A stretch of 64,000 nt of DNA. It comes from Halogeometricum rufum (lineage in GTDB: Archaea; Halobacteriota; Halobacteria; Halobacteriales; Haloferacaceae). Shown piece after piece: positions 1,302 through 9,436 of this stretch. The stretch spans positions 62,001-126,000 of the forward strand of contig NZ_FOYT01000001.1 in the NCBI RefSeq assembly GCF_900112175.1. The letters run 5' to 3'. A model generated the notes under the pieces. The model was not told where the DNA came from. It did not search any database and saw only the letters and a list, made by a program, of their open reading frames with translations. Position numbers and translations under genes: made by a program. Within the stretch, counting starts at the first letter, position 1. Every line of letters starts with the position of its first letter.

Positions 1302-1444
1302 CCGCGACACCGAGGGGTCGGAAGGCCGCCCGGTAGCGCGCCGCGAGTGCGTGGCGTGGAGAGGCGGCCACGCCCGCGTTTCGCCCGACTCGTCGCCCAC
1401 GCGTCCCGTTCTCGGTCGTCGTTCTCGCGTCCCCACGGTACCCC

Positions 1445-1999
1445 TCACGCCTCGCAGGGCACCGGGCGGGTGAACGCTATCCTGACGTCTTCGCTCTGGA
1501 CGACGACGCGGACCCTGTCGTCGCAGGCGACTGGCGTGAGGGTGGCCGTCGCCTCGTCGTCGACGACGACGCGGTCCGAGACGGTCCGTACGTCGCCGTC
1601 GCGGGTGCCTTCGACGCTCACCACGGCGACGAAGCCGCCGAGGTCGGGCACCCGGTTCGTGACGGTCACGAACAGCGTGCGCGCCGTCGGCGCGGCGGCC
1701 GGCAGCGACTCGCCGCTTCGACCGACGGCTCCGTTCGCCGCCGGCGTCCCGTTCCGAACGTCCGAGGCGACCCGCGTTCCGTTTGCGGCCGGCCGGGACC
1801 CGTTCGCCCGGACGCTGGCGTTTCCGGGACTGGGTCGCTCCCGTTCGAGACGCATCTCGACGCCCACGTACGCGCTCGCGTCCGAGGCGACGGTTCCGGT
1901 CACCCCACGGTCCGCCTGCGTCGCGCTCAGACTCCCCGTCGGTATCGCCGTCAGGACCACGATACCGGCGGCGACGAGGAGTATCCCCGCTCGCCTCAT
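1445..1999 (-). CDS. secreted protein, divergent member of the local surface family
   Basis: A 184-residue exported protein. MRRAGILLVAAGIVVLTAI is a Sec-type signal sequence or N-terminal membrane anchor. The mature start, with GVTGTVASDASAYVGVEM, matches the Arg-x-Ile...Gly-Asp-x-Ser-Ala-Tyr block of the two proteins encoded at 3001 and 3854. A low-complexity Asn/Gly/Ala-rich stretch (about residues 60-105) separates this from a beta-rich C-terminal half with two cysteines (VACDD and PVPCEA) that could form a disulfide. The start at 1999 overlaps the stop of the upstream regulator by four bases (ATGA), which implies translational coupling. It is probably a structural or accessory surface protein. 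Membership of the family is inference from one shared motif. Confidence 0.7.
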   Translation of the reverse strand: MRRAGILLVAAGIVVLTAIPTGSLSATQADRGVTGTVASDASAYVGVEMRLERERPSPGNASVRANGSRPAANGTRVASDVRNGTPAANGAVGRSGESLPAAAPTARTLFVTVTNRVPDLGGFVAVVSVEGTRDGDVRTVSDRVVVDDEATATLTPVACDDRVRVVVQSEDVRIAFTRPVPCEA

Positions 2000-2664
2000 C
2001 GGTCGGTCGCCTCCGGCGGCGGGCCGTCGTGCCCGACGTGCATCCGCGTCCACGTGTCGTAGGCGAACACCGCGCTGGACGTGAGCGACGTCACCGCGAC
2101 GAAGACGGCCAGCGACTCGTGGGAGAGTCCCGAGAGCACCGGGACGCCCACGAGCGAGCCGAACACGACGGCCGAGAGTATCGAGGAGACCAGCAGCAGG
2201 TACGGCCCCCAGGCCAACTCACGACCCGACGTGGTCTCCAGATAGATGTTCACCGCTTCGGCGCGGTCGGTGAGTTCGACGACGCTCTCCTCGCGGTCGA
2301 ACTCGACGAAGCCGAGGTCCTCCAACTTCGGCGCGTGGAACTGCGACAGCGACGTGTGCACGTTCTTCCGGTCGGCGTACGACAGGCTCTCGGCGTCGAT
2401 TCCCCGCTCCCACGCCGTCACCTGCGCGGAGAGGTCGGCCAACTCCACCGGTTCGTCGGCCCCCTGCTGTTTCAGGTAGTGGATGACGAACCGGCGACGC
2501 TGGTTGCTCAGCGCCTCGAACAGCGCCTCGTGCGTCGGCTGTCGGTCGTCCCCCCGCGCTCCGTCGTCCGCCTCGTCGTCGTCGGTCACCGCATCCGCGG
2601 GCGACGACGACTCGCTCGCCTCGCGATACTGCCCGTTTTCGGTCAGGTGAGTCCCCTCACTCAT
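1996..2664 (-). CDS. winged-helix regulator with C-terminal membrane helices (DUF7344-like)
   Basis: A 222-residue protein. Residues 1-45 are acidic and disordered. Residues 46-140 form a winged-helix domain of the haloarchaeal DUF7344 type: ALFEALSNQRRRFVIHYL, then a loop, then LSQFHAPKLEDLGFVEFD. Two membrane helices follow (about 150-172 and 178-200), then a short charged tail. The layout suggests a membrane-tethered DNA-binding regulator. It is coupled to the secreted-protein gene at 1999 and divergent from the two surface-protein genes, so it is the best candidate regulator of this locus. The palindromic element at 2924 and 3762 would be a natural target, but that link is inference. Confidence 0.8.
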   Translation of the reverse strand: MSEGTHLTENGQYREASESSSPADAVTDDDEADDGARGDDRQPTHEALFEALSNQRRRFVIHYLKQQGADEPVELADLSAQVTAWERGIDAESLSYADRKNVHTSLSQFHAPKLEDLGFVEFDREESVVELTDRAEAVNIYLETTSGRELAWGPYLLLVSSILSAVVFGSLVGVPVLSGLSHESLAVFVAVTSLTSSAVFAYDTWTRMHVGHDGPPPEATDR

Positions 2665-3000
2665 CGTGACCCCCCTGACGCTGCCCCACTTGTCATCGCA
2701 GCCACACCAATGGAACCGGGGTCTTTAGTTACACACCGGGGGAGTCGGCCCCCCGCGTACGAAGGCCGCGTGTGCGCGACCCGCAATCACACCCATCGTT
2801 CGATTAAGCCGGCGTGAAACTCAGTTCCGCGGGACGACCGCATCTGTCTGAGAGTCGCCGCGTGCCGACCTGTCGGCGTCGGGACGCGTTTGCGTCGAGC
2901 GTGGACCGCGTTCGTCACGCGACGTTCGAACTCTAACAATAGGTTCGGCGAGCGTCGACGGAGGTGAGCGCCGCGAACGCACTCGCGGGGCGGACACACC
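2665..3000. promoter_or_regulatory. divergent control region with GTTCGAAC element
   Basis: This 336-base gap has no convincing gene. It separates the membrane-tethered regulator (left) from the first surface-protein gene (right). GTTCGAACTCTAACAATA lies at 2924-2941, and a near-copy occurs at 3762-3779 before the second surface gene. GTTCGAAC is itself an 8-base palindrome. Farther upstream, ATTAAGCCGGCGTGAA (about 2803-2818) matches TTTAATCCGACGTGAA (about 3628-3643) before the second gene. The two upstream regions therefore look like a tandem duplication with conserved control sites. Confidence 0.5.
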
Positions 3001-3534
3001 ATGCAACGACGAACGTTCATCGGGGGACTCGGGGTACTGGCCGCGGCGGGGAGTGCGGTGTTCGGCACCGCCGCCGTCTCGAACGTCACGGCGGAGCGAA
3101 ACATCACCGCCAGCGTCGCGGGCGACGGCAGCGCGTATCTGGAGATACGCGAGGGCGCCGCCAACGGCTTCGCCGTCGAGAACTTGGACGGCGCGTTCCG
3201 CCTGAACTTCGCGAACGACCCGGACGGCGGCAACGGCCTGAACGAGGACGCCGTCAGTTCGTTCGACGACGCGTTCCGCATCAACAACACCGGCGACGAG
3301 ACGCTGGCGGTTCACATCGAGGACGGGAAGGACCGCATCGAGTTCTACTTCGGCGAGGACGCAAGCGACGGGGACTACGGCAACGACACCACGGTGACGA
3401 CGACCCTCGAACCGGGCGACGACCCGTTGATGGTCGGCGTCCGCATCGACCTACGGGACGTGGCGGCGGCGGGCGTGTTCGCCGGCGACGACGACTTCAC
3501 CATCGTCGCCGAGGACGTGGACGACAACGCCTGA
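3001..3534 (+). CDS. secreted DUF1102/TasA-like surface protein
   Basis: A 177-residue exported protein. MQRRTFIGGLGVLAAAGSAV is an Arg-containing signal sequence (RRTFIGG, Tat-like). The mature part starts near TAERNITASVAGDGSAYLEI and continues with FRLNFAND, GGNGLNEDAVSSFDDAFRINNTG and a Thr-rich strand region. This pattern fits the archaeal DUF1102 group, which I associate with TasA/camelysin-type fibre proteins exported by SipW-like peptidases. The mature region is very acidic with no cysteine. It is followed by a paralogue at 3854 and a signal peptidase at 4619, supporting a role as an extracellular filament or matrix subunit. The family name is from memory; the fibre role is inference. 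Confidence 0.72.
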   Translation: MQRRTFIGGLGVLAAAGSAVFGTAAVSNVTAERNITASVAGDGSAYLEIREGAANGFAVENLDGAFRLNFANDPDGGNGLNEDAVSSFDDAFRINNTGDETLAVHIEDGKDRIEFYFGEDASDGDYGNDTTVTTTLEPGDDPLMVGVRIDLRDVAAAGVFAGDDDFTIVAEDVDDNA

Positions 3535-3853
3535 ATCGCCGACCCCCTCTTTTTCGAATCGCGTCAAGGCGGCGAGCGTTCGCTCGGCTTTCGAACCGAA
3601 TCGGGCCGTATCGAGGGAATACGCGGGTTTAATCCGACGTGAAGGTTCGGCGACCGGTCGCCTCTCGTGGGGGAGGGGTCCGTTTGCGGGGGACCAATCG
3701 AGGCGAACGGCCGGGCGCGGAGTCGGTTGGCGGCGCGCCGGGAGCGCGTTCGTCAAGAAATGTTCGAACTGTAACAATATGGCGTCCGGTCCACGTGGGA
3801 AGTGAGCACGACGGGTCGCGGTGGCCCGGGTGCGACAGGAGACAACTACGACA
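3535..3853 (+). promoter_or_regulatory. control region of the second surface gene
   Basis: A 319-base gap without a gene. It contains TTTAATCCGACGTGAA near 3628-3643 (a possible TATA-like TTTAAT) and GTTCGAACTGTAACAATA at 3762-3779. Both are near-copies of sites before the gene at 3001, in the same order and at similar distances. The conservation stands out because the coding regions downstream differ so much in sequence and base composition. It probably carries the promoter and a shared operator. Confidence 0.5.
3550..3554 (+). terminator. T-run terminator after the first surface gene
   Basis: A five-T run (CCCCCTCTTTTTCG) lies 16 bases past the stop of the gene at 3001. Haloarchaeal termination commonly uses short T-tracts. 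It would separate this gene from its paralogue at 3854, which has its own copy of the upstream control element. Confidence 0.45.
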
Positions 3854-4483
3854 ATGCAACGACGAAAGTATCTGGCCGCGTTGGGATCGCTTGCCGCCGG
3901 TGGGGCGGCGATGACTGGGACTGGGGCGTTCGCATCCGTTCGAGCAGAACGGAATCTGAATGTTAGCACTGCTGGGGATCTCAGTGCCTACCTAGGTCTC
4001 AAACCGACTAGCGAATACACAAATCTCGATAATGGGAAACTCAATATTGAATTTTCAGGAGGTAACGGGGAAGGTGGACAGGGCCTGAATAAGAACGCAG
4101 ATACTCTGTTCGCGAACGTATTCAAAATCGTTAATCAGGGTACGAATACAATAAGAGTCCAACTTGGCGATGATGATGACCAGAGTTCATTAATTGGATC
4201 GCTTCCGGACGGACCAATGGCCGTATTCTACTCATTTAGCGGTCTCAGCTCGCCGAATGTGTCGAATTTCACGCCCTTTGACGCAAGTCCGGCCCCCAGT
4301 TACTACCCCAGTTCAGACGTTACTAATCAAGATCTGTCACCGGGTGATGAAATGTATGTTCACATGGGGTTCTACCTAAACGCCGATACTCAAGAACTGG
4401 GCGGTGCCTCGACCAATATCGTTGATGTTCCCGACGATATCGGGATTTATGCTGATTCGACGCCTGATTCAGACGGATTATAG
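3854..4483 (+). CDS. second secreted DUF1102/TasA-like surface protein, AT-rich body
   Basis: A 209-residue paralogue of the protein at 3001. The signal sequence MQRRKYLAALGSLAAGGAAM is encoded by normal GC-rich DNA. From about residue 31 (RAERNLNVSTAGDLSAYLGL) the coding sequence becomes AT-rich, with codons such as AAT, ATT and TTA that are rare in the neighbours. Shared blocks include AERN, GDxSAYL, GLNKNADTLFANVFKIVNQG and an acidic C-terminus. The loop region is longer than in the sister protein (PDGPMAVFYSFSGLSSPNVS). The start is ATG 3854, preceded by the same element as the sister gene; an in-frame GTG at 3821 would only lengthen the signal. It is probably a filament or surface subunit whose exposed part was exchanged by recombination. 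Confidence 0.72.
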   Translation: MQRRKYLAALGSLAAGGAAMTGTGAFASVRAERNLNVSTAGDLSAYLGLKPTSEYTNLDNGKLNIEFSGGNGEGGQGLNKNADTLFANVFKIVNQGTNTIRVQLGDDDDQSSLIGSLPDGPMAVFYSFSGLSSPNVSNFTPFDASPAPSYYPSSDVTNQDLSPGDEMYVHMGFYLNADTQELGGASTNIVDVPDDIGIYADSTPDSDGL

Positions 4484-4665
4484 AAGTCGAACTCACTACC
4501 CGCATATTTTAATTGGATAGCCGTCGAGGAGAAGAACTGCCAATTACGCAGAGATCACACCATCGATAACTACAAAGATAGATGAACTATCGTAAAATAT
4601 TTGTAATTTTCTAAATCGATGAATGTAAACCAGATATTTCACGACAGCTTGAAACTTCTTGCTCT
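3945..4665. other. AT-rich segment with sharp borders inside two genes
   Basis: Base composition drops abruptly near 3945, inside the surface-protein gene just after its signal peptide. It returns near 4665, inside the first membrane helix of the signal peptidase. In the counted stretch 4141-4200 only 23 of 60 bases are G or C, and in 4561-4620 only 15 of 60; the flanks are well above half. No transposase, integrase, tRNA or terminal repeat is visible. Borders inside conserved coding ends fit homologous replacement by DNA from a less GC-rich haloarchaeon. Confidence 0.75.
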
Positions 4666-5788
4666 CTGCTTGATACTCGCTCTCCTCGTCGGCGCCGCCC
4701 TCGGCCAACCAGTCCTCCTCGGCTACGTCGAAACCGGCTCCATGTCCCCGACGATGGAACCGGGCGACGGCTTCGTCGCCGTCCCCTCCGCCCTCACCGA
4801 CGAACCCGAGGCGGGCGACGTCGTCGTCTTCCGCGCGGAGGAGATACAGGGCGGCGGCCTGACCACCCACCGAATCGTCGGGGAGACGCCACAGGGATAC
4901 GTCACCAGAGGCGACGCGAACCCGTTCACCGACCAGGACGGCGACGAACCGCCGGTGAAAGAGGCGCAGATAGTCGCCGAGGCGTGGCAGGTGGGCGGGA
5001 ACGTCGTCGTGATTCCGCAGTTGGGCACCGCAGTGACGGGAATCCGCGGCGCCGTCGAGACGGTGCAACGGACCGTCTCCTCGCTACTGGGGACGCGCGC
5101 CCTCCTCGGCCCGCAGGGACTCGCGTACCTGTTCTTCGGCGCGACGGCCCTCTACTACCTCGTCGGCGAACTCCGCGGCGACGGGCGGGAGCGTCGGCGT
5201 CGGGAGACGAACCGCGACGGGGGTATCGACCCGCGCCTGTTCGCCCTCGGCTTCACCCTCCTCCTCGTCGGCGGCGCGACGGCGGCGATGGTCGGACCGG
5301 CGGGCACACAGCAGTACGGCGTCGTCAGCGCGGAGTTCGACTCCGAGCGACCGACGGTGATTCCGGCGGGCACGTCCGCGAACGTCACCTACGCCGTCGG
5401 CAACGGCGGGTCCGTCCCCGTCCACGTCTTCCTCGAACCCGCCAGCGAAGGCGTGGCCGTCCACCCCGAGGAACTGACCGTCGACGGCCGGCGCGTCGCC
5501 AACGCCACGGTGACGCTGTCGGCGCCGCCGCAGACGGGGTACTACCGCCGGTTCGTCACTGAACACCGCTACCTCGCGGTGCTTCCCCACTCCGTGACGG
5601 AGTCGCTCTACCGGGTCCACCCGTGGGCACCAATCGTCGCCATCGACGCTCTCCTCGGCGTGCCGTTCTACCTCCTCGCAGTCGCTCTCGTCGGCACTGG
5701 ACGAGTGCGGAGTCGGAGTCGGAACCGAGCGGTGCCGATGCGGCGGCGGATTCGACGGGCGGTGCGGGGCCTGTACGCCCGCGAGTGA
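4619..5788 (+). CDS. SipW-like signal peptidase I (S26B) with extracellular extension
   Basis: A 389-residue membrane peptidase. An N-terminal helix (about 10-30) precedes the S26B core: catalytic Ser41 in TGSMSPTM, His84 in LTTHRIVG and the RGDANPFTDQ block (Asp99, Asp105). The Ser-His pattern without a lysine is the ER/archaeal SipW type. Unlike a minimal peptidase, it continues with helices near 160-180 and 195-215, an outside domain (about 220-325) and a last helix near 340-360. It lies 135 bases after the second surface gene, with a TATA-like AAATATTTG about 20 bases before ATG 4619. It probably cleaves the neighbouring surface proteins. The extra domain may hold or present substrates; that is inference. 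Confidence 0.85.
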   Translation: MNVNQIFHDSLKLLALCLILALLVGAALGQPVLLGYVETGSMSPTMEPGDGFVAVPSALTDEPEAGDVVVFRAEEIQGGGLTTHRIVGETPQGYVTRGDANPFTDQDGDEPPVKEAQIVAEAWQVGGNVVVIPQLGTAVTGIRGAVETVQRTVSSLLGTRALLGPQGLAYLFFGATALYYLVGELRGDGRERRRRETNRDGGIDPRLFALGFTLLLVGGATAAMVGPAGTQQYGVVSAEFDSERPTVIPAGTSANVTYAVGNGGSVPVHVFLEPASEGVAVHPEELTVDGRRVANATVTLSAPPQTGYYRRFVTEHRYLAVLPHSVTESLYRVHPWAPIVAIDALLGVPFYLLAVALVGTGRVRSRSRNRAVPMRRRIRRAVRGLYARE

Positions 5789-5878
5789 CCGGCGCGCTCC
5801 AACGTCACGCCTGTAACGAGACCTGAAACTACGTTACCCACGACGTTACTATCGTGTTACTCTCTCGACAGACGAGCG

Positions 5879-7102
5879 ATGTCTGACTGGGAGATTCGGG
5901 CACGGGGAGTGATAACAGGCAACTTCGCGCTGGTGGTCGGGTGTATGCTCGTCCTCGCCGCGGCGGGCGGGTGGGTGACGTACGCGACTCACGTCGACCC
6001 GGGGACGCACGTCGAGGAGCGTCCGGGAGCGTGGTGGGAGACGACGGCCGAGTTCGGCCACGCCGCGACGGTCACAGAACCGAACCCGGTGTACCCCGTC
6101 GGCGCCACGCTGACGGACCGGTCGGCGTACTACGGTGCCATCGCGCCGCGACTCGACGGCAACTTCACGTACGGGTACGCCGCCAGCGAGGGCGGGTCGC
6201 TGACCCTCCGCGTCGACGCGGACGTGGTGTTGCAGGCCGTCGAGCGGAACCAATCCGGGGCGGTCCAGACGCGGTACTGGCAACGGACGCGGAACCTCGG
6301 CGAGTCGGAGGCGCGCGGCGTCGCACCCGGCGAGTCCGTCCGCGTCCCGTTCTCGTTCAACGCCACCGAACTCGCACGCGAGACGGACCGGATAGACGAG
6401 GAACTGGGGGCGTCACTGGGCGAAACCGAAGCGCTCGTTCGCACCACCGTCACGCTCACGGGGACGGTGAACGGGGAGTCCGTCGACCGGACCGAGCGGT
6501 ACGCCCTGCCCGTCGGACTGGGGAACGCGTACACCGTCGAGGACCCGGGGCCGACGACCGACCGGCACGCGCCGACCCGGACGGTCACCGTGCCGAACCG
6601 GTACGGACCGGTGCGGCAACTCGGGGGGCCGGTGCTCCTCGGCGTCGGACTGGGCGGCGCCGTCGGACTCGTCTGGGCGCGCCGGCGGGGCCGTCTGGCG
6701 CCGCCGACGCCGGCCGAGACGGAACGGCTCTCGTTCCGCGAGGCCCGGTCGGAGTTCGACGAGTGGATTCACGCCATCGACCTGCCCGCCTCGGCGTTCG
6801 AACGCCCCCGCGCGGAGGCCGAGTCGCTCGCGGACCTCGTCGACTTCGCCATCGACACGAACAGCAGCGTCGTCGAGGACGCCGAGGCGGGGACGTACTA
6901 CGTCCTCCACGACGGCTACCTCTACACGTACGCCCCGCCGGCGTTCGACCGTCCGGACGACGGCACCGGTGACGGCGAGAGCGGCGGTGCGAACGGCGAC
7001 GGTGACGGGGAGAGTGACGCGATGGACGGCGGAGAGCGCCGACCGGACGACGCCTCCGAGTCGGCGACGGCCGCGTCGGCGGACGGAGAACGGTCGCCGT
7101 AG
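5879..7102 (+). CDS. DUF5305-type membrane protein
   Basis: A 407-residue protein with an N-terminal membrane helix (about 16-36), an extracellular beta-rich region (about 40-240) and a second helix (about 248-270: VLLGVGLGGAVGLVWARRR). A cytoplasmic part follows with FDEWIHAIDLP and LADLVDFAIDTNSSVVED, ending in a disordered Gly/Asp-rich tail (about 360-407). The pattern matches DUF5305, a haloarchaeal family I recall next to signal peptidases like the one at 4619. The gene follows that peptidase by 90 bases on the same strand. It may anchor or assemble the surface proteins. No enzymatic motif is visible. Confidence 0.78.
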   Translation: MSDWEIRARGVITGNFALVVGCMLVLAAAGGWVTYATHVDPGTHVEERPGAWWETTAEFGHAATVTEPNPVYPVGATLTDRSAYYGAIAPRLDGNFTYGYAASEGGSLTLRVDADVVLQAVERNQSGAVQTRYWQRTRNLGESEARGVAPGESVRVPFSFNATELARETDRIDEELGASLGETEALVRTTVTLTGTVNGESVDRTERYALPVGLGNAYTVEDPGPTTDRHAPTRTVTVPNRYGPVRQLGGPVLLGVGLGGAVGLVWARRRGRLAPPTPAETERLSFREARSEFDEWIHAIDLPASAFERPRAEAESLADLVDFAIDTNSSVVEDAEAGTYYVLHDGYLYTYAPPAFDRPDDGTGDGESGGANGDGDGESDAMDGGERRPDDASESATAASADGERSP

Positions 7103-7106
7103 CGCG

Positions 7107-7832
7107 TCAGACGTCGTTCGCGTCGCGGAGCGTGAACGCGCCCTCGTACAGGGCCGTCCCGACGACGGCGGCGGCCGCGCCCGCCTCCTTCAGCGCCCGG
7201 ACGTCGGAGAGCGAGGCGACGCCGCCGGAGGCGACGACGGGGATGTCGACGGCGTCGACGACGCGGCGGGTCACGTCCGTCTGGACTCCCTCTAGCTTCC
7301 CCTCCACGTCCACGTCGGTGAACAGAATCGCGCCCGCGCCGAGTTCCTCGTAGCGCGCCGCGGCCTCTGCGGGGTCCAGTCCCGTCCCCTCGGTCCACCC
7401 GGAGACGACGACTTCGCCGTCCCGCGCGTCGAGGCTCACCATCACGGAGCCGGGGTGCGTCTCGCTTATCTCGGCGACCACGTCCGGGTTCTCCACGGCG
7501 GCCGTCCCGAGGATGACGCGTTCGACGCCGAGTTCGAGGAGTTCGCGGGCGTCCGCGGCCGTCCGGATGCCGCCGCCCAACTGGACGGGCACGTCGACGG
7601 CGGCGACGACGGCTTCGACGGCGTCGGCGTTCTGGCGTTCGCCCTCGAACGCGCCGTCCAAGTCGACCAGGTGGAGCGTGGACGCGCCCTCGTCCACCCA
7701 GCGTTCGGCGGCCGCGACGGGGTCGCCGTACCGTTTCTCCGTGCCGCGTTCGCCCTGCACCAACTGGACGACTTCGCCGTCCTGCATGTCTACCGCCGGA
7801 ATCACCTCGAACGTCGGGAACGCCTCTGACAT
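7107..7832 (-). CDS. hisA: HisA, ProFAR isomerase of histidine synthesis
   Basis: A 241-residue TIM barrel that isomerises N'-(5'-phosphoribosyl)formimino-AICAR ribonucleotide (ProFAR to PRFAR), the fourth step of histidine synthesis. Asp15 in IPAVDMQDG and Asp135 in VSLDARDGEVVVSGW are the catalytic pair. Phosphate-binding loops are LGGGIR (85-90) and VVASGGVASL. Length is normal for the family. It ends four bases from the convergent DUF5305 gene. hisI lies 4 kb away on the same strand, so the his genes are scattered, as is usual in haloarchaea. Confidence 0.96.
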   Translation of the reverse strand: MSEAFPTFEVIPAVDMQDGEVVQLVQGERGTEKRYGDPVAAAERWVDEGASTLHLVDLDGAFEGERQNADAVEAVVAAVDVPVQLGGGIRTAADARELLELGVERVILGTAAVENPDVVAEISETHPGSVMVSLDARDGEVVVSGWTEGTGLDPAEAAARYEELGAGAILFTDVDVEGKLEGVQTDVTRRVVDAVDIPVVASGGVASLSDVRALKEAGAAAAVVGTALYEGAFTLRDANDV

Positions 7833-8071: not shown

Positions 8072-9436
8072 ATGAAACTGTTCGGTTCGAGCGGGACCCG
8101 TGGCGTCGTGGGGGACGGCCTCACGCCCGAGTTCGTCCTGCGCGTCGCCAAAGCGGCCGGGACGGTCTGGGGGTCGGACCGTGCGGTGGTCGCGCGCGAC
8201 ACGCGAACGACCGGGGAGATGTTCTCGAACGCCGCCGCGAGCGGTCTCACCAGCGTCGGCGTGGACGTGGACGTGCTGGGCGCCGTCCCCACGCCCGGCG
8301 CGGTCCGCTACTGCGGGGCCGAGGAGGTTCCGGCCGTGGTCATCACGGCCTCTCACAATCCGCCGGAGTACAACGGCATCAAACTCGTCGGCGACGACGG
8401 CGTCGAACTCGCCGTCGCCGACCTCGAACGCATCGAGGACCACGTCCTCGCCGAGGAGTTCGCCACCGCGTCGTGGGACGAGGTGGGCGAGATTCGGCAC
8501 GTCGACTCGGCGAACCGCGAGTACGTCGAGGACCTCCTGACCGCCATCGACGGCGACGCCATCGCGGACGCGGACCTGACCGTCGCGCTCGACCCCGGCC
8601 ACGGCGCCGGCTGTCTCACCAGCCCCGACTTCTTCCGCGAACTCGGCTGTGAGGTCGTCACGGTCAACGCCAACCCCGACGGCCACTTCCCCGGCCGCGA
8701 GTCCGAACCCGTCGGCAGCAAACTCGGCGACCTCTGCCGCCTCGTGAAGGCCAGCGACGCCGACGTGGGCATCGCGCACGACGGCGACGCCGACCGGGCC
8801 GTCTTCGTGGACGAGGCGGGCGAGTTCGTCGCCGGCGAAGCCTCGCTGGCCGCCCTCGCCGCCGCCCACCTCGACGAGGGCGACACCACCGTCGCCGCCG
8901 TCAACGTCTCCCAGCGTCTCGTGGACGTCTGCGACGACGTCGGCGCGAACCTCGAACTGACGCCCATCGGCGCGACGAACCTCATCACGCGGATTCGCGA
9001 CCTGTGGGCCGAGGGCGAGTCCGTCCCCATCGCGGGCGAGGGCAACGGGGGGATATTCTTCCCGAACTACCGACTCGTGCGCGACGGCGCCTACACCGCC
9101 GCGAAGTTCCTCGAACTCGTCGCCGACCGGCCGGTGAGCGAGGTCATCGCCCCCTACACCGACTACGTGAACGTCCGCGTCAACCTCGCGTACGAGGACG
9201 AGGCGGAACTCGAAGCGATGCTGGAGGCGGCCCGCGACTACGCCGAGTCCTCGGAGGCGACGCCGAACACGACGGACGGCTACCGCCTCGACTACGGCGA
9301 CGCGTGGGTGCTCGTTCGGCCCTCCGGCACCGAACCGAAGGTGCGCGTCTACGCCGAGGCCCGCGATGAGGGCCGCGCACGCGAACTCGCCGGCGGCGCC
9401 GAGGCGGCCCTGCGCGCCGCGATCGACGACTCCTGA
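8072..9436 (+). CDS. glmM: phosphoglucosamine mutase (GlmM-type phosphohexomutase)
   Basis: A 454-residue alpha-D-phosphohexomutase, probably converting glucosamine-6-phosphate to glucosamine-1-phosphate for UDP-GlcNAc and surface glycans. It opens with MKLFGSSGTRGVVGDGL. The phospho-acceptor is Ser94 in ITASHNPPEYNG, the metal site is HDGDADRAVF (about residue 236), sugar contact is GEGNGG, and the C-terminal phosphate loop is RPSGTEPKVRVY. All four signature loops are intact. Haloarchaeal family members are often annotated GlmM, but phosphomannomutase or phosphoglucomutase activity cannot be excluded. A TATA-like CTTTGAT near 8042 lies about 27 bases before ATG 8072, suggesting a leaderless mRNA. 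Confidence 0.88.
   Translation: MKLFGSSGTRGVVGDGLTPEFVLRVAKAAGTVWGSDRAVVARDTRTTGEMFSNAAASGLTSVGVDVDVLGAVPTPGAVRYCGAEEVPAVVITASHNPPEYNGIKLVGDDGVELAVADLERIEDHVLAEEFATASWDEVGEIRHVDSANREYVEDLLTAIDGDAIADADLTVALDPGHGAGCLTSPDFFRELGCEVVTVNANPDGHFPGRESEPVGSKLGDLCRLVKASDADVGIAHDGDADRAVFVDEAGEFVAGEASLAALAAAHLDEGDTTVAAVNVSQRLVDVCDDVGANLELTPIGATNLITRIRDLWAEGESVPIAGEGNGGIFFPNYRLVRDGAYTAAKFLELVADRPVSEVIAPYTDYVNVRVNLAYEDEAELEAMLEAARDYAESSEATPNTTDGYRLDYGDAWVLVRPSGTEPKVRVYAEARDEGRARELAGGAEAALRAAIDDS

Follow-up and report, generated by a model that had tools for sequence, protein, structure and literature searches.

The 64-kb window (the whole stretch of DNA analyzed) belongs to the 4.19-Mb genome of Halogeometricum rufum, whose family also includes Salinigranum salinum (G193) and Haloferacaceae archaeon XH8 (G029). 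It contains a fimbrial cluster at positions 1305 to 7118, with the gene order DUF7344, fimbrillin, signal peptidase, and DUF5305. The divergently placed DUF7344 protein (1996 to 2664, minus strand) is probably a regulator. Two small plus-strand genes with putative leaders of the twin-arginine (Tat) type follow, a paralogue of the fimbrillin with 177 amino acids and normal G+C content (3001 to 3534) and the fimbrillin gene itself, with 209 amino acids (3854 to 4483). The promoter region and Tat-leader codons of the latter make up a left anchor (3722 to 3931, plus strand) that is conserved with a haloarchaeon of another genus, G011 (locus L083), and the similarity stops 78 nt into the fimbrillin gene. 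The remainder of the gene is the body interpreted below as exchanged (3932 to 4483, plus strand), the closest relatives of which lie in genus g14 (58% identity). An AT-rich tract with a G+C content of 0.44 and likelihood-fitted borders spans positions 3953 to 4677 and takes in the AT-rich noncoding DNA between the fimbrillin and signal peptidase genes (4484 to 4618); the 120 nt past the fimbrillin stop codon have a G+C content of 0.39. The next gene encodes a signal peptidase I (S26) with a C-terminal domain (4619 to 5788, plus strand); its codons 1 to about 19 lie in the tract, and beyond about codon 19 it is conserved with G011. The cluster ends with another conserved partner, the DUF5305 protein (5879 to 7102, plus strand), and the gene 3' of it is one that we take to be HisA.

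Both small genes passed the cutoff of the DUF1102 profile (Pfam PF06510, 22.2 bits), with 27.0 bits for positions 3854 to 4480 and 27.5 bits for positions 3001 to 3531. The product of 3854 to 4483 also matched the solved structure of a homologue annotated as "Pilin" (PDB 9p0a, chain C; E value of 1e-12). Its scores with the TafE and TafA profiles (NCBIfam NF052522 and NF052520) were 59.0 and 35.2 bits, far under the curated cutoffs of 155 and 190, so it is described here as Taf-like and is not classed as TafA or TafE. These three kinds of matches are the reason for calling it a fimbrillin, that is, a putative filament subunit. Residues R3, R4, K5, and G24-A25-F26 were invariant across 10 aligned fimbrillins, while the Pfam TAT_signal profile was under its cutoff for the gene at 3001 and unlisted for that at 3854. 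An AlphaFold model of the fimbrillin, made from four sequences only, had a mean pLDDT of 41.8. The paralogue at 3001 to 3534, which is weakly TafE-like, has a similar promoter region of its own, only weak relatives in the loci examined (best, 39%), and no counterpart at the corresponding position of G011; its product may act as a minor or adapter subunit. Searches of the H. rufum genome with the fimbrillin returned, at the protein level, itself, one paralogue with 43% identity, and one chance-level match, and, at the DNA level, only itself. Since there is no copy beyond one distant paralogue, switching from silent copies within the genome was ruled out.

Composition of the tract and of related fimbrillin genes

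The first-pass annotation had placed a sharp AT-rich tract at 3945 to 4665, and this was confirmed: the G+C content there is 0.447, versus a mean of 0.689 over the 64 kb (measured over 720 bp; standard deviation, 0.039), and no other run in the window falls below 0.55. That both borders lie within genes was likewise borne out by a three-segment likelihood fit over 3001 to 5800, which gave borders at 3953 in the fimbrillin gene (3911 to 4013 within 3 lnL) and at 4677 in the first codons of the signal peptidase gene (4659 to 4695) and segments with G+C contents of 0.66, 0.44, and 0.71. The right border falls in the signal peptidase frame at about codons 15 to 26, and the first 15 residues of this protein share 7% to 40% identity with those of 30 other signal peptidases, none of which is a good match. 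The third-position G+C content (GC3) is 0.476 for the fimbrillin, 0.916 for the paralogue, 0.854 for the signal peptidase, and 0.895 for DUF5305. The flanking codons, described earlier as normal, are only partly so on the left, where the leader is already somewhat AT shifted (GC3 of 0.60, 0.70, 0.50, and 0.30 for codons 1 to 10, 11 to 20, 21 to 30, and 31 to 40). The left border is thus softer in codon use than in raw G+C content, which the glycine and alanine codons of the leader keep high.

A total of 61 loci were compared, consisting of that of H. rufum, 20 found mostly by signal peptidase similarity, and 40 found by fimbrillin similarity. Fifty-two of them have a small fimbrillin gene and at least one partner gene, and the nine without both were left out. 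The mean GC3 of the fimbrillins was lower than that of the partner genes in 50 of these 52 clusters, which span the order, and in 43 of the 44 GC-rich loci (means of 0.642 and 0.869). In the first locus set, 17 of 20 bodies had lower values than the signal peptidase, and in genus g14, whose loci were selected by signal peptidase or were already in the set, 26 fimbrillins had an average GC3 of 0.543 and their partners one of 0.914. The AT-rich composition had been read as the mark of one replacement in this strain, a reading that does not survive this near-universal shift. Composition neither dates nor proves an exchange here, and recent transfer can hardly be read from low G+C content by itself when the fimbrillin is AT-rich nearly everywhere. 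AT-richness is a trait of circulating fimbrillin genes in general.

One explanation of this trait is selection on the gene itself, through codon use or expression, with the source of the DNA playing no part and exchange being a separate matter. Such selection would account for the recurrence of the AT shift in many lineages, but three observations make it rather unlikely. First, the 100 nt after the fimbrillin stop codon, some of which begin another gene, likewise have a lower G+C content (0.549) than the 100 nt that follow DUF5305 (0.698). Second, archaellins of the same genome with readable frames (L185 to L188 and L190) have GC3 values of 0.81 to 0.94, which indicates that filament genes need not be AT-rich; in this archaellin and pilin control, the frames of L181 to L183 and L189, all with matches on the minus strand, were probably misread, that of L191 is doubtful, and L184 was not used. 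Third, related bodies can differ widely, as those of L132 and L163 do (GC3 of 0.91 and 0.54). An AT-rich circulating pool that drifts slowly toward the G+C content of its hosts fits both this pair and the AT-richer DNA past the stop codon.

One chromosomal site and two genealogies

Neither a matching signal peptidase nor a matching fimbrillin was found in the four congeners examined, which have 103 to 366 bp where H. rufum has 5.81 to 5.87 kb. Taken by themselves, these four absences would suit an island recently inserted in this strain. However, the cluster lies at the same chromosomal site in G011, where the left flank, DUF7344, the signal peptidase, DUF5305, HisA, and the next gene all align (86% identity for HisA and 81% for a GlmM-like protein), and HisA is also found near the clusters of S. 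salinum and G192. It is therefore simpler to assume that the congeners lost the cluster than that H. rufum gained it, and a recent island is improbable. A region at 113 to 1060 with an SDR-like gene (135 to 902) is also variable, being replaced by 56 bp in G002 and by about 3.1 kb of other DNA in three other congeners; one congener has a gene similar to the SDR-like gene elsewhere.

Within the cluster, the conserved DNA breaks off where the leader codons end and returns where the next conserved gene begins. In the comparison with G011, a block at 3722 to 3931 has 74% identity and similarity resumes at 4697; with S. salinum (L145), the block is at 3820 to 3930 (80%) and similarity resumes at 4674. 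These limits are near the composition borders at 3953 and 4677. The leader through GTGAF is identical between H. rufum and S. salinum, and residues 1 to 30 of the fimbrillin share 87% identity with S. salinum and 63% with L129, a locus of G155 in genus g14; for residues 111 to 209, the values are 20% and 54%. The closest bodies in the genomes searched are those of G155 (L129) and G146 (L130), with 57% to 58% identity. Among the loci compared, the partners are closest to those of G011 (DUF7344, 70%; DUF5305, 71%) and the signal peptidase to those of G192 and G011 (65% and 67%).

A careful phylogeny of 25 bodies grouped that of H. rufum with L129 and L130 (support of 98/89) and rejected its grouping with L083 and L145 (p-AU of 0.006). 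The latter grouping was not rejected in a quick tree of 69 bodies (p-AU of 0.365); the two trees disagree on this point, and the smaller one was made after the larger one on a subset and an alignment chosen by the authors. The 25-body tree also rejected a single clade of the nine g14 bodies (P = 1.4e-5), and ten g14 signal peptidases formed a starred clade with an SH-aLRT value of 96. The genealogy of the fimbrillin body differs from the one common to the promoter, leader, and partner genes. No recent donor of the H. rufum body was found in the genomes searched, and with a best identity of 57% to 58%, either the replacement happened long ago or its donor has not been sampled. Searches for a close donor gave only weak partial matches in three plasmid records, none in phages, and none in viral contigs by a close-relative pattern search. 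G146 and G155 share two adjacent fimbrillins, which in G146 lie on a contig stretch with a low G+C content (0.54) and no detected partner genes, possibly a mobile or plasmid location.

Recurrence across the order and within genus g14

All of the comparisons below are between species, with one genome per species. In 34 clusters (561 pairs), the mean best-body identity remained at 29% to 37% whatever the signal peptidase identity, in all bins from 35% to 45% up to more than 90%. The rank correlation with signal peptidase identity was 0.13 for bodies (P = 0.11), 0.32 for leaders, 0.46 for DUF7344, and 0.68 for DUF5305; the DUF7344 and DUF5305 identities rise with that of the signal peptidase, and those of the bodies do not. 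A colinear left anchor was present in 50 of the 53 pairs whose signal peptidases are at least 62% alike. It ended a median of 88.5 nt past the start codon, between 60 and 150 nt in 45 of the 50, and covered the whole gene in none. The other three are H. rufum pairs, for which the script counted the paralogue (3001 to 3534) as the first gene, and the anchors of two of them were obtained by another route.

The same pattern was repeated within genus g14, for which 36 loci out of 52 genomes were examined. Fimbrillins occupied the slot that separates DUF7344 from the next conserved gene in 16 loci, this slot appeared empty in 18, and two loci were incomplete; the empty-looking slots have a median length of 344 nt and a range of 219 to 3072 nt, so a few of them may hold genes that the motif missed. 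First bodies were less than 50% identical in 119 of 120 species pairs, and the median identities were 30% for the body, 84.5% for the signal peptidase, 82% for DUF7344, and 89% for the leader. The left anchor ended a median of 83 nt after the ATG (60 to 150 nt in 96 of the 104 pairs measured), and conserved DNA on the right side started a median of 20 nt past the start of the next gene (-120 to +60 in 80 of 120 pairs). In pairs such as L095-L173 and L138-L168, upstream DNA and leader are 80% to 100% identical and the body is about 40% identical, near the value for unrelated DNA after alignment. One g14 pair, L143-L198, has three fimbrillins in common at the same place, with DNA identities of 79%, 66%, and 94%, and 87% for DUF7344, 80% for the next gene, and 82% for the signal peptidase.

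The mirror image, bodies closer than their partners, was found between different genera or families in L131-L162 (79% for the body versus 57% for the signal peptidase), L132-L163 (73% versus 51%), and L083-L145 (77% versus 62%). The DNA common to L131 and L162 starts at about +55, within the leader, and stops precisely at the stop codon; the flanking DNA is dissimilar at either end, and the leaders are only 62% alike. The first-pass annotation had proposed that the exposed part of a surface protein was exchanged through conserved ends, and this is supported, since relatives share the promoter, leader, and partners but not the body, the body has other relatives, and the pattern recurs genus-wide. 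It had also named one AT-rich allele in all relatives, diverged equally with its neighbors, as an outcome that would contradict this; nearly all alleles are indeed AT-rich, but they have not diverged in step with their neighbors.

Two further observations concern the slots. A second fimbrillin-like gene lies in the opposite orientation past DUF7344 in L131 (9622 to 10437) and L143 (4776 to 5585), with identities of 70% to 93% for upstream DNA, 87% to 97% for the leader, and about 40% to 55% for the body, and with this same combination of conserved start and variable body, it may represent a second variable slot per cluster. In G192 (L136, 6323 to 8930), an insertion sequence with a transposase-like frame (6550 to 7374) interrupts the fimbrillin immediately past its leader, and the locus also has part of the start of a second signal peptidase (8640 to 8930) and small genes nearby that are presumably toxin-antitoxin-like; the slot thus collects insertions.

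The body might instead diverge fast in place under diversifying selection, with the leader held by its function and no exchange of DNA. A conserved leader next to a variable body in nearly all pairs, in a protein predicted to be exposed, is what such divergence would produce, and leaders under functional constraint are expected to look conserved from that constraint alone, which counts against exchange. Divergence in place is nevertheless already disfavored and has little probability: upstream DNA is 85% to 99% identical in L095-L173 and L138-L168 while the bodies are near chance level, bodies common to genera or families are more alike than the partner genes, the nine g14 bodies do not form one clade, and slots carry one to three genes or none inside one genus. 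Least probable of all is a single event in which this strain recently received the DNA from an AT-rich donor. The low G+C content and sharp borders would fit such an event, but the order-wide AT shift of fimbrillins makes it unnecessary, and the genomes, plasmids, phages, and viral contigs searched contained no close donor.

Probable body replacement and known systems

We consider it probable, with good confidence, that leader-anchored body replacement produced the tract, which would be the swapped body of a putatively Tat-exported fimbrillin within a fimbrial cluster of haloarchaea, and fimbrillin genes appear to be swapped in this leader/body manner across many haloarchaea. DNA from other haloarchaea would recombine into the locus in place of the body through two homologous anchors, the conserved promoter and leader at the left end and the beginning of the next gene at the right end. 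The recipient would retain export, expression, and assembly partners and alter the exposed surface of the fiber. Since the H. rufum genome has no silent store, the donors would be other cells. Haloferax is polyploid and has efficient gene conversion, according to PMC11276520, and features of this kind would help new alleles become fixed. Selection by viruses, grazers, or partner recognition may sustain the high turnover, a weaker suggestion than the replacement itself; virus selection is the usual proposal for exposed loci (PMC4033161, PMC4535781, PMC6011602, and PMC11078007).

A broader reading, of which we are less than half persuaded, is that an order-wide AT-rich pool of fimbrillin bodies exists, from which small cassettes move between the conserved leader and the next gene. 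If so, this would be a serotype-like system of exchangeable fiber surfaces in which only long-resident bodies have a host-like G+C content. The findings point to a defined, very fast-turning haloarchaeal surface locus with the leader as its anchor, found across genera and families. With such a locus, one can test which surface structures change with virus pressure, whether short intragenic anchors serve in haloarchaeal recombination, and what keeps one surface gene AT-rich in GC-rich genomes.

In the antigenic variation of Neisseria pilE/pilS, a conserved start is joined to a variable exposed body. The fimbrillin has the same two parts, but unlike in Neisseria, no silent copies were found in the H. 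rufum genome. Tat-fimbriae ("tafi," with TafA; Galeva et al. 2025, as presented in PMC12687288) are thin, Tat-exported haloarchaeal fibers, and the fimbrillin, a putative filament subunit with a candidate Tat-type leader, resembles them in its weak TafE and TafA matches but differs in scoring far below the NCBIfam cutoffs for both. The homeocassettes of Halorubrum ezzemoulense, as outlined in PMC11078007, are divergent homologues at one position between conserved genes, for which recombination in the conserved flanks was proposed and one case of which is a type 4 pilus island. The fimbrillin locus likewise has divergent homologues at the same position between conserved neighbors, here between species. 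The homeocassettes so outlined are islands between core genes of one species, where they exclude one another and at least half of the genes of an island are homeoalleles, whereas the left border here is intragenic, at the end of the leader, and the exchanged unit can be a single gene body. In replacement flexible genomic islands (PMC4033161) and the cell wall island of Haloquadratum walsbyi (PMC4535781), exposed structures are replaced between conserved flanks, and the authors of both linked these islands to virus pressure; the units are much larger than ours, and the abstracts describe no leader-anchored intragenic border. Leader-anchored exchange of haloarchaeal fimbrillin bodies was described in none of the titles and abstract openings searched, a coverage outside which most of the subscription literature lies. 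The kind of system, represented by homeocassettes and replacement islands, is thus already known, and what is new within the literature searched is that the border is intragenic, at the leader, that the unit is small, that the pattern extends across families, and that AT-richness is constant.
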